From: Pseudomonas sp. R84
Lineage (GTDB): Bacteria > Pseudomonadota > Gammaproteobacteria > Pseudomonadales > Pseudomonadaceae
NCBI RefSeq assembly: GCF_009834515.1
Contig: NZ_CP019426.1
Location: forward strand, 4,019,501-4,083,500
Direction of reading: 5' to 3'
DNA: 64,000 bases
Shown: one piece after another, positions 33,492-35,483 of the stretch
Layout: each line of letters starts with the position of its first letter
Numbering within the stretch: position 1 is the first letter of the stretch
Notes under the pieces: generated by a model
Database searches by the model: none
Told to the model about the DNA's origin: nothing
What the model saw: only the letters and a program-made list of their open reading frames with translations
Translations under genes and position numbers: made by a program

Positions 33492-33569
33492 GGCGCCTTC
33501 GCGAGCAAGCTCGCTCCCACAGGGGGTACGCATTTCAAAGGTGGGAGCGAGCCTGCTCGCGAAGTCGCC
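33492..33569. repeat. REPIN, family B
   Basis: GCGCCTTCGCGAGCAAGCTC and the inverse GAGCCTGCTCGCGAAG-TCGCC, short loop of about 28 bases, directly after the ftrA stop. Confidence 0.93.
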
Positions 33570-33602
33570 CAGTCAAACGCAGCATCATTTAGACATCAGC
33601 CA

Positions 33603-33902
33603 CAAGGCTACAGCGCCTTGCGCCTTTGCCTACAACTACGCCAGAATCCGCCGGCTTGTGCGGCTTGGGGGCTGCCGGTAACTTGGTTCGCGTCACGGAA
33701 TGTTCAGTGATCGGGTTTAGTCGCTCGGTGTCATCTCTAGCTAGCAAGCTGTTATTCAGTCTGGCATTTCCATGCCTGCACTCAATGGCGGCTATGCGCA
33801 GGGCGCTTTCGAGCGCGCCGGTTTAGCTAGGAGGCCGGTCGACTAACCTGCGTATAGCTGCCACCCAATGTTTAGTCGCAAACGGTGTCAGCCTCATTGA
33901 GG
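33603..33902 (+). ncRNA. Structured 5' leader / candidate RNA upstream of the DUF6124 gene
   Basis: The 340-bp stretch before 33914 has no convincing gene but dense potential RNA structure. From 5' to 3': hairpin CAAGGC/GCCTTG (33603-33620); CCGGC/GCCGG (33651-33678); GGCAT-TTCC-ATGCC (33763-33776); then a long-range stem, 33786-33802 with 33847-33863, 17 pairs including two G-U, closing a three-way junction that holds GCGCT-TTCG-AGCGC (33803-33816) and CCGG/CCGG (33818-33838) with AGGAGG in its loop. The motif GTTTAGTCGC-N2/4-GGTGTCA occurs on both sides (33715-33733 and 33870-33890). A last hairpin CCTC-ATT-GAGG (33892-33902) covers the only Shine-Dalgarno-like bases before the ATG. Type (leader, independent RNA, or repeat element) is undecided. 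Confidence 0.5.
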
Positions 33903-33913
33903 TTTCCTAGCAT

Positions 33914-34294
33914 ATGTTCAAAATAACGCCGAATCCGCCCGAAACAGAAGCGGAAGTCGATCCAAATCCAACGTCCCCCTATTCCACACCGGGCTCCAGA
34001 AAACTCCACGAAGCCGCCGAACGCGCCCTCGATCATTACCTGAAACCCACACCGCCATCACCACCGCGCAGACCCAGCACCATGTTCCTCGTCGACCCGA
34101 ACACCGGCGCCGAAGACCTCATGGCCCACGCCTGCGAATCCATGGCCTCGGCCAGCATCATGCTCAGCGACTTCGCCGCCCTGCTCGACTCGCCCTACCG
34201 CAACACCGTGCTTGGCATCCAGCAAGTGGTCATGCTCGGCGAACTCGCGGTCAACCGCGCCCTCGACAAAATCGAACTCGCCCTGAGGCAATAA
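33914..34294 (+). CDS. DUF6124 (formerly DUF3077-like) family protein
   Basis: 126-residue cytoplasmic protein common in Pseudomonas. A variable Pro-rich N-terminus (MFKITPNPPETEAEVDPNP) precedes the conserved helical part FLVDPNTGAEDLMAHACESMASASIMLSDFA and GIQQVVMLGELAVNRALDKIEL. No enzymatic motif. The C-terminal part is predicted all-alpha. Long structured leader upstream; a small gene follows 2 bp after the stop. Function unknown. Confidence 0.85.
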   Translation: MFKITPNPPETEAEVDPNPTSPYSTPGSRKLHEAAERALDHYLKPTPPSPPRRPSTMFLVDPNTGAEDLMAHACESMASASIMLSDFAALLDSPYRNTVLGIQQVVMLGELAVNRALDKIELALRQ

Positions 34295-34296
34295 AC

Positions 34297-34566
34297 ATGT
34301 CCAACAAAACCGATGCACAAGTCGTCGCGGCACTGGTGGCCATGGGCTTCAATGAGCGGGACGGACGCTGGGCACAGAACGCCTGCCTGGTGCTGTTCGA
34401 AAGCGAACGCGAATCCATCGTCGCCTCCGCCGTCACCGCCCTTCCCCAACTCGATGAACTGGAAATCGACGCCGTGCTACCCGCATTGCGCCGCGTAACC
34501 CGCCGGTTCCCCTCACTGCAAAGAACCGTGGCCGACACACTGGCCGAGATGTCGCACGCGGCCTGA
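34297..34566 (+). CDS. Small hypothetical protein co-transcribed with DUF6124
   Basis: 89 residues, acidic/helical (MSNKTDAQVVAALVAMGFNE...LPQLDELEIDAVLPALRRVTRRFPSLQRTVADTLAEMSHAA). Begins two bases after the DUF6124 stop, so the pair is an operon. I recognise no family. GC and codon use match neighbours. Confidence 0.7.
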   Translation: MSNKTDAQVVAALVAMGFNERDGRWAQNACLVLFESERESIVASAVTALPQLDELEIDAVLPALRRVTRRFPSLQRTVADTLAEMSHAA

Positions 34567-34583: not shown

Positions 34584-34680
34584 CTTCGCGAGCAGGCTCG
34601 CTCCCACACTAGATCTGCGGTGGCTCATGGTATTTGAGTACACCGCCGATCCAATGTGGGAGCGAGCCTGCTCTCGATGG
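34584..34680. repeat. REPIN, family B
   Basis: TTCGCGAGCAGGCTCGCTCC and inverse arm GGAGCGAGCCTGCTCTCGA (one transition) between the DUF6124 operon and the toxin gene. Confidence 0.93.
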
Positions 34681-34844: not shown

Positions 34845-35168
34845 ATGCCAAGACACAAGGATGTGAGGTTTGTCGGGAGTGCGCTTAAAGATCTGAAAGA
34901 ATTCCCACCCGATGCCCGCAGAGCAGCGGGGTTTCAGTTGGATCTCTTGCAGCAGGGCGACGAACCGTTTGATTGGCGGCCAATGAAAACGGTCGGACGG
35001 GGCGTCAACGAAATCAGAATCACCGAGGACTCAGGGGCGTTTCGAGTGTTCTACGTGGTCAGCCGACCTGAAGCGATCTATGTGCTGCACGCCATGCACA
35101 AGACCACGCGCAAAACTGAAACGCGAGATATCGAACTGGCACGCGCCAGATACCAGGAAATAAGGTAG
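34845..35168 (+). CDS. RelE/HigB-like toxin (Gp49 family)
   Basis: 107 residues. Family signatures are VRFVGSALKDLKEFPPDARRAAGFQLDLLQQG, FRVFYVVSRPEAIYVLHAMHKTTRKT, ending in a basic tail. Members are ribosome-dependent mRNA interferases or inactive relatives. Start ATG 34845 has AAGGAG six bases upstream. Upstream DNA (34690-34780) is distinctly AT-rich and carries TTGATTTATATC and GATATAACC, a likely autoregulated promoter. The antitoxin gene follows after 3 bp. Confidence 0.88.
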   Translation: MPRHKDVRFVGSALKDLKEFPPDARRAAGFQLDLLQQGDEPFDWRPMKTVGRGVNEIRITEDSGAFRVFYVVSRPEAIYVLHAMHKTTRKTETRDIELARARYQEIR

Positions 35169-35171
35169 ACC

Positions 35172-35483
35172 ATGATGGATCATCAAAATCTTTCCCAGCG
35201 CTATTCAAGTGTCTGGGATGCACTGGAAGACACGCCGCAGGATGCCGCCAATATGCGTCTGCGGGCTAAACTGATGCGCACGCTTTGCGAGACCATTCGA
35301 GCTTGGGAGCTTCCTCAAAAAGAAGCAGCCAAACGCTTGGGAATTACCCAGCCACGGCTTAACGATGTGCTCAATGGAAAAATCGACAAGTTCTCTTTGG
35401 ATGCGCTGGTCAATTTGTCAGCCGCAGCAAAGCTGCAGGTAGACATCTGTTTCCCTTTGGGTCAACCGCTGCAATGGGCCTGA
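35172..35483 (+). CDS. XRE-family antitoxin (HigA-like, HTH_37)
   Basis: 103 residues. HTH at about 45-80 (LPQKEAAKRLGITQPRLNDVLNGKIDKFSLDALVNLSAAAKLQVDI). Downstream of its toxin, the HigBA order. Two ATGs (35172, 35175) are both possible. Expected to neutralise the toxin and repress the operon. Confidence 0.88.
   Translation: MMDHQNLSQRYSSVWDALEDTPQDAANMRLRAKLMRTLCETIRAWELPQKEAAKRLGITQPRLNDVLNGKIDKFSLDALVNLSAAAKLQVDICFPLGQPLQWA

Follow-up and report, generated by a model that had tools for sequence, protein, structure and literature searches.

C4 antisense RNAs act in the immI (c4-icd-ant) regions of phages P1 and P7, where RNase P cuts C4 from a longer transcript as an RNA of about 77 nt and translation is blocked; the segment a′ of this RNA gives the specificity and the segment b′ covers the ribosome-binding site (PMC5320573). 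In the annotated phage P1 record, the elements follow each other in the order a1, b1, C4, a2, b2 and icd, and icd starts 50 nt after C4. Weinberg et al. 2010 reported two motifs from Proteobacteria and phages, c4 antisense RNA and c4-a1b1, which represent the same RNA and the same upstream motif as those described below (PMC2864571). Moreover, the group 1 C4-like sRNAs of Acinetobacter baumannii form a large family within one genome, with variable a′ segments and signs of processing (PMC5320573), and IsrK of prophage Gifsy-1 is a small RNA produced from the leader of the transcript that it targets (PMC4825925).

In the main articles of the open-licence literature, we found no link of C4 to DUF6124, no many-copy C4 family in Pseudomonas and no paper on DUF6124; a DUF3077 gene of P. 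putida is mentioned in passing (PMC9630843). Here we analyse a C4 locus upstream of a DUF6124 gene in a window of Pseudomonas sp. R84, the window being the whole 64-kb stretch of DNA that was analysed. The RNA family itself is known, and its target, the scale of cognate pairing and the switching of alleles appear to be new.

RESULTS

A C4 antisense RNA precedes a DUF6124 gene

When the whole window was compared with Rfam by cmscan, a single match was returned, the C4 antisense RNA (RF01695), on the plus strand at positions 33781–33868 (76.1 bits against a cut-off of 45, E = 4.2e-13, full model 1–87). The gene behind it (33914–34294, plus strand) encodes a 126-aa DUF6124 protein (PF19619, 71 bits, cut-off 27), which is the presumed C4 target. 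Thus, a preliminary description of this DNA was right in placing a structured regulatory RNA directly upstream of a DUF6124 gene, and the Rfam match supplies the name that it had believed to be lacking. The 17-pair stem with two G–U pairs that it had pointed out (33786–33802 with 33847–33863) is found in the sequence and is stem P1 of C4, the two hairpins seen inside this stem are P2 (33803–33816) and P3 (33818–33821 with 33835–33838), and the AGGAGG noticed in a loop sits in the P3 loop (33822–33834), i.e. in the antisense loop b′.

Covariation, the absence of which had been named as grounds for refuting the element, was present when 30 of the 36 C4 copies in the window's own genome were aligned. 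In this alignment 98.5% of the cells of P1 hold a standard pair and 9 of its 16 modelled pairs have changed on both sides; for the whole C4 structure the values are 98.2% and 15 of 26 pairs, and they were reached by none of 500 shuffles. The long P1 enclosing P2 and P3 is kept by covariation, as expected from the earlier view that selection maintains the pairing. The folding energy of the 344-nt region was not unusual (z = −1.2, 12 of 100 shuffles as good), so that the structural signal comes from comparison and not from energy. Match and alignment identify the element as a C4 antisense RNA, a class originally known from phage P1.

Antisense segments and their target sites

Two segments of the RNA, both on the plus strand as are their sites, would do the pairing. 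The loop b′ (33822–33834) is predicted to pair with b2 and b1, and a′ (UCGACUAA, 33839–33846), which lies between P3 and the 3′ strand of P1, with a2 and a1. Both are complementary to sites ahead of the DUF6124 start codon: a2 (TTTAGTCGC, 33871–33879), at the same place as a2 of phage P1, has 7 nt (33872–33878) exactly complementary to a′, and b2 (TTTCCTAGC, 33903–33911) forms with b′ a 9-nt helix, one G–U included. The b2 site lies between the start codon and a Shine–Dalgarno-like GAGG read from the sequence (33899–33902, 11 nt before the ATG), and is therefore beside the Shine–Dalgarno sequence, not on it. As a positive control, exact complements of b2 and a2 of phage P1 were found in the P3 loop of its C4 and behind P3, as in the window. 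A second target-like pair is located upstream of C4, with a1 at 33716–33724 (complementarity to a′) and b1 at 33736–33744 (9-nt helix with b′). Since the AGGAGG loop is complementary to, and covaries with, the stretch before the start codon of its own mRNA, AGGAGG belongs to an antisense loop, and its reading as a decoy ribosome-binding site was rejected.

The direct repeat GTTTAGTCGC..GGTGTCA, which had been described as flanking the element, is literally present (33715–33724/33727–33733 and 33870–33879/33884–33890), and its first half stands: GTTTAGTCGC marks the target sites a1 and a2, and GTTTAGTCG is retained on both sides in all 21 aligned copies of the window locus. The upstream GGTGTCA half is not kept among orthologues, where GGTGTTT, GGTAATC and others are found, and judging from these sequences it is probably due to chance. 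A direct-repeat search with a minimum length of 12 reported none, because the gap between the repeat halves is unequal.

Leader, flanks and neighbouring genes

A promoter-like pair read from the sequence (33656–33684, plus strand; −35 TTGTGC at 33656–33661, 17 nt, −10 TAACTT at 33679–33684) matches the consensus at 6 of 12 positions and is a weak candidate; a stricter promoter scan of the window locus found no promoter. By a loose TTG..TA...T rule, a pair is present in 25 of the 36 paralogous cassettes, with at least 7 of 12 matches in 17 of them, both counts being without chance control. Between this pair and a1 there is a leader hairpin (33692–33711, plus strand), whose form GTCRCTG..CAGYGA recurs by eye, again without chance control, in other cassettes and in orthologues. 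Of the three upstream hairpins in the preliminary description, this is the one that recurs ahead of a1 in paralogues. On the weak promoter candidate, the DNA upstream of about 33685 probably lies ahead of the transcription start. REP-like inverted repeats (GGGAGCGAGC..GCTCGC) are found on both sides of the C4–DUF6124 cassette, at 33492–33569 (a 29-nt, 93% complementary pair) and at about 34585–34680 (read by eye).

Two bases past the DUF6124 stop codon, the ORF list gives an 89-aa frame (34297–34566, plus strand), which is perhaps co-translated with DUF6124; it matched no Pfam family above its cut-off, and an unsystematic look at the ORF listing of the other cassettes showed no obvious counterpart. 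Just downstream (window 34845–35483), a Gp49-like (PF05973) gene and then an HTH_37 gene have the layout of a HigBA-type toxin–antitoxin system.

The predicted structure of DUF6124 is a helical hairpin of about 120 residues (mean pLDDT 75.5, pTM 0.48). Searches with this model in the PDB and viral fold libraries gave no match with E below 0.2, and the sequence gave only a chance-level match in the PDB (E = 0.21). A common ancestry of the target families was not supported by profile comparison, in which the best pair, DUF6124 and an unnamed family, reached E = 0.024 and 2% probability; profile comparison with P1 Icd showed no similarity.

Thirty-six C4 cassettes in one genome

The window's own genome holds 36 C4 matches, 35 above the Rfam cut-off, and these are followed by 29 DUF6124 genes, 2 DUF3077 genes, 2 Bro-N genes and 3 genes without a Pfam family. 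With the starts used for pairing, the start codon lies 45–57 nt after the C4 match in all 36 cases; for L004 the start used belongs to a 24-aa leader ORF that overlaps a DUF3077 gene, and in L013 and L032 a second possible start lies 9 nt further upstream in the same frame. The b2 helix is within −22 to +2 of the start in 35 of 36 cassettes and overlaps a Shine–Dalgarno-like 4-mer in 20. Counted from the side of the targets, there are 33 DUF6124 domains in the genome, 29 of them directly after a C4 and one as the second of a tandem pair, and 3 of the 33 genes had no C4 match at E 0.01.

The other genes behind C4s also deserve description. In L001 and L036 (by Pfam) and in L072 (by resemblance), C4 precedes a Bro-N (antirepressor-like) gene, and these cassettes are perhaps the ancestral phage type. 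The unnamed family, proteins of about 90–105 aa with a ..LLIDT.. motif, is found behind the C4s of L026, L033, L035, L073 and L080–L082 and as the second gene of L034; the members scanned matched no Pfam family above its cut-off. Leader ORFs of 24–38 aa stand directly behind C4 in L004 and L075–L077, and the overlap of that of L004 with the DUF3077 start suggests translational coupling like that of icd and ant in P1.

Each C4 is predicted to pair best with its own target

Pairing was evaluated from the loop sequences alone, using ViennaRNA duplex energies and the sum of a′/a2 and b′/b2. In the window's own genome the cognate mean was −22.0 kcal/mol and the non-cognate mean −10.7 kcal/mol, a result reached by none of 5000 permutations, and by predicted summed energy the own target was best, ties counted, for all 36 C4s (L028 and L034 tie to one decimal). 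Neither segment suffices by itself. The b′ segment alone chose its own b2 in 28 of 36 cases by helix score and in 27 by energy. The a′ segment alone chose its own target in 30 of 36 by helix score (with ties) and in 10 by energy; it is not specific enough by itself because one a′ is common to nine copies and another to four. Non-cognate combinations matched the weakest cognate one in strength in 31 of 1260 cases, and three targets, those of L020, L028 and L036, each have a foreign C4 whose predicted pairing equals or exceeds that of their own. The upstream sites follow the same pattern over the 36 paralogues: the cognate energy of a′/a1 was below all 5000 permutations, with the own site best in 13 of 36, and b′/b1 was likewise cognate (0 of 5000 permutations), with the own site best in 23 of 36.

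In a second genome, 30 of the 42 C4 matches were examined, including L088 and L095, which lack an open frame where one is expected and were scored with a default start. Here the cognate mean was −21.1 and the non-cognate mean −10.4 kcal/mol, the own target was best in 25 of 30, and again none of 5000 permutations reached the observed value. Three C4s, L095, L096 and one at G005:C1:3630531, are copies about 850 bp apart; L095 and L096 share identical a′ and b′ and are a recent tandem duplication with one copy, L095, decaying.

Cognate pairing is thus strongly supported by the sequences, with each C4 addressing mainly its own mRNA. Crosstalk may in addition be actively avoided. Among C4s with the same a′, non-cognate b′ pairing was slightly weaker (−5.14 vs −5.69, p = 0.028, for pairs that are not independent), and in module permutations for the own genome, the five measures were equalled or undercut by 23, 74, 89, 271 and 676 of 2000 permutations. 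In the second genome (L095 left out) none was significant, with 214 to 766 of 2000. As a selective force, crosstalk avoidance is therefore suggestive only: module permutation gave a marginal result for the own genome and a negative one for the second.

Specificity is kept or replaced as a whole among orthologues

Searching 298 genomes across the genus recovered L037–L057, which comprise the window locus together with 20 clear relatives. In these 21 copies a′ is identical throughout, and b′ occurs in 16 distinct forms. Pairing of b′ with b2 was cognate (−12.9 vs −7.7 kcal/mol, best in 10 of 16, 0 of 5000 permutations), and b1 follows b′ less strictly (best in 5 of 16, 0 of 5000 permutations), so on these alignments b′ and b2 change together among orthologues. 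In the nine closest sequences, the fraction of differing positions was 0.45 in b1, 0.40 in b′ and 0.34 in b2, against 0.096 at third codon positions, 0.09 and 0.04 in the two strands of P1 and 0 in a′; the ratio is approximate, as gaps were counted as differences and loop lengths vary.

In further comparisons, the 36 cassettes were set against 30 of the 43 C4 loci of genome G103 and 30 of the 42 of G025. Differences in b1, b′ and b2 were counted in the best-pairing windows with gaps as differences, and three comparisons under 75% identity were left out. In the looser set of 36 comparisons, 13 showed no more than 1 change and the other 23 showed 7 or more. Where just one flank is syntenic, a neighbour of the true counterpart can be picked (the loop of L007 recurs in L266 and not in the paired L269), which makes such pairs unreliable, and only the 16 pairs with two syntenic flanks were used for counting switches. 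Over the three b sites, 7 of these 16 were unchanged and 9 replaced wholesale, with none intermediate: out of about 38 positions, the unchanged pairs differ at 0, 0, 0, 0, 1, 1 and 1, and the switched pairs at 10, 13, 15, 16, 16, 20, 20, 20 and 22. Seven loci underlie the nine switched comparisons, with shared events among them (L002 and L017 twice each). In the looser 36 comparisons, mean cross-pairing fell from −22.2 kcal/mol in unchanged to −14.8 kcal/mol in changed pairs and cognate pairing stayed near −22 in both. Hence, an orthologous cassette either keeps its address or swaps it wholly, with its own pairing intact.

Third codon positions differ more in switched pairs (180 of 1093) than in unchanged ones (82 of 821), which makes import by recombination a live cause, and wholesale recombination from another strain or a paralogue could be the source of the switches. 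The coding part is little changed in several switched cassettes; at the window locus, 7 of 126 third positions differ from G025.

Distribution and carriage on mobile elements

All 12 relatives searched within the genus have C4 matches (1 to 42 copies each), and so does 1 of 6 genomes from other families of the order. Among 398 genomes sampled across the phylum, DUF6124 was found in 7, six of them of the genus Pseudomonas and one as a sub-threshold match. The best 80 of 301 loci found in named genomes are all titled Pseudomonas, and all 80 have a C4 upstream, which stands 45–55 nt before DUF6124 in 70, ahead of a tandem pair of DUF6124 genes in 8, and further away in 2. IMG/VR contributed 77 DUF6124 loci, 67 with a C4 over 70 bits, and all three neighbourhoods tested there contain a phage tail assembly chaperone gene. 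In GenBank phages, DUF6124 was present in 1 of 50,697 records, at the record edge, and in 0 of 72,556 plasmid records. In Pseudomonas, then, the family resides mostly on chromosomes. The GenBank counts speak against a phage origin of the chromosomal copies, but the IMG/VR loci show that carriage by prophage-like elements is real, so that transfer may have gone either way.

Several IMG/VR contigs have further C4-like features. Prophage-like contigs with two full C4 matches each are those of L231, L233, L203, L214, L243 and L255; in L233 and L231 the first C4 lacks, by eye, a target site downstream. L209, L233 and L255 also contain C4-like hairpins of low score, and a T run comes after some of these.

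DISCUSSION

Taken together, the C4 fold, its covariation, the complementarity at two sites, their position relative to the start codon and the genome-wide cognate specificity, all read from sequence, lead us to propose, with a probability of about 0.82, that the leader of the target mRNA gives rise to a C4 RNA which represses the translation of this same mRNA. A transcript from near 33690 would carry a1–b1, the C4 fold, a2–b2 and the DUF6124 gene, and C4 would be processed out of this longer transcript, so that the earlier idea of a processed small RNA is, by C4 identity, probably correct. Acting in trans, the processed RNA would use a′ to pair with a2 and b′ to pair with b2, which lies at the ribosome-binding region, and would in this way keep DUF6124 translation low; a1/b1 may provide feedback on the leader. 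As the loops differ among the 36 cassettes, each C4 would mainly hit its own mRNA, like the heteroimmune C4s of P1 and P7. The locus is classed as a C4 RNA and not as an immI region, since its target is not icd-ant: control of icd and ant was considered and rejected, the target here being DUF6124, with Bro-N in 2 of 36 cassettes only.

What DUF6124 does may extend this proposal. It is possible, though we would sooner expect otherwise, that the cassettes are addiction modules of the type I toxin–antitoxin kind, with C4 serving as antitoxin RNA and with growth inhibited by DUF6124 and the other proteins of the cassettes. Such dispersed, multi-copy cassettes with cognate-specific RNAs resemble Ibs/Sib, the paralogous type I toxin–antitoxin systems of E. 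coli, in which several dispersed pairs have each RNA matched to its own mRNA. The Ibs/Sib RNAs are encoded antisense to the gene, in few copies, and the toxins are small and hydrophobic. According to the P1 record annotation, C4 of P1 silences icd, a cell division inhibitor, and some copies of the cassette lie in the tail gene block of prophage-like contigs. Against this reading stand the some 120 residues of DUF6124 with a predicted helical hairpin and no fold matches below E 0.2, and the persistence of three DUF6124 copies without a C4. Somewhat more doubtful still is a broader view, in which the P1/P7 heteroimmunity switch has been turned, dozens of times over one genome, into address-specific locks on small paralogous proteins: the block replacement of b1, b′ and b2 would fit selection for new specificities, e.g. 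against phages or cassettes with a matching C4 or target, and DUF6124 would be an effector silenced by its own key.

Control in cis only, in which the nascent leader alternates between the C4 fold and an a′/a2–b′/b2 fold and no free RNA is made, is unlikely. In the cases examined C4 is always on the same strand and just upstream of the target, compensated drift of the loops would likewise yield cognate matching, and the weak signal of crosstalk avoidance beyond chance counts in its favour. But near-identical paralogues have differing loops, the cognate upstream sites a1/b1 have no obvious use in a cis switch, the C4 RNAs of P1 and P7 act as free, RNase P-processed RNAs, and the C4-like RNAs of A. 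baumannii show read peaks at the processed region (PMC5320573).

Repression by a free RNA is also to be weighed against activation, in which the free RNA would open the ribosome-binding site of the long transcript, as for IsrK; this we regard as quite improbable. C4 is in Rfam clan CL00128, to which IsrK belongs too. In trans, the short form of IsrK activates the long one (PMC4825925), and the sign of C4 control is thus not certain, but b′ pairs directly in the ribosome-binding region as in P1, where according to the record annotation such pairing represses. Finally, the sensing leader or protein-binding decoy offered in the preliminary description for a compact three-way junction ahead of a gene has a negligible probability, since Rfam assigns C4 and the variable loops are antisense segments that covary with the target, while a ligand pocket would be a conserved part.

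With the proposed repression, C4 RNAs outside P1-like phages gain a concrete, testable target set, a question left by the A. baumannii work (PMC5320573), and DUF6124 gains a regulatory context. If true, one cell holds a natural library of dozens of matched RNA repressor–target pairs, which would be useful for studying the evolution of antisense specificity and as parts for synthetic regulation. Moreover, because sibling species differ in specificity either wholly or not at all, selection on RNA addresses can be tested directly.

Compared with known systems, IsrK of Gifsy-1 differs in that it activates, its output being AntQ (PMC4825925). The account of the c4 motifs by Weinberg et al. 2010, in the parts that concern these motifs, has no DUF6124 link, copy number or allele switching (PMC2864571). 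For the A. baumannii C4-like sRNAs, as far as that paper's treatment of them goes, other transcripts are suggested as the targets (PMC5320573), whereas here an adjacent cognate target is present, both a′ and b′ vary, and specificity is readable from the sequence. The closest likeness is to the P1/P7 immI region, in site order, in the loop positions of a′ and b′, in start-codon spacing and in the ribosome-binding region as target; in contrast to immI, the targets here are DUF6124, DUF3077, Bro-N or an unnamed family instead of icd-ant, and the Pseudomonas cassettes are chromosomal, with 36 copies in a single genome and differing specificities.
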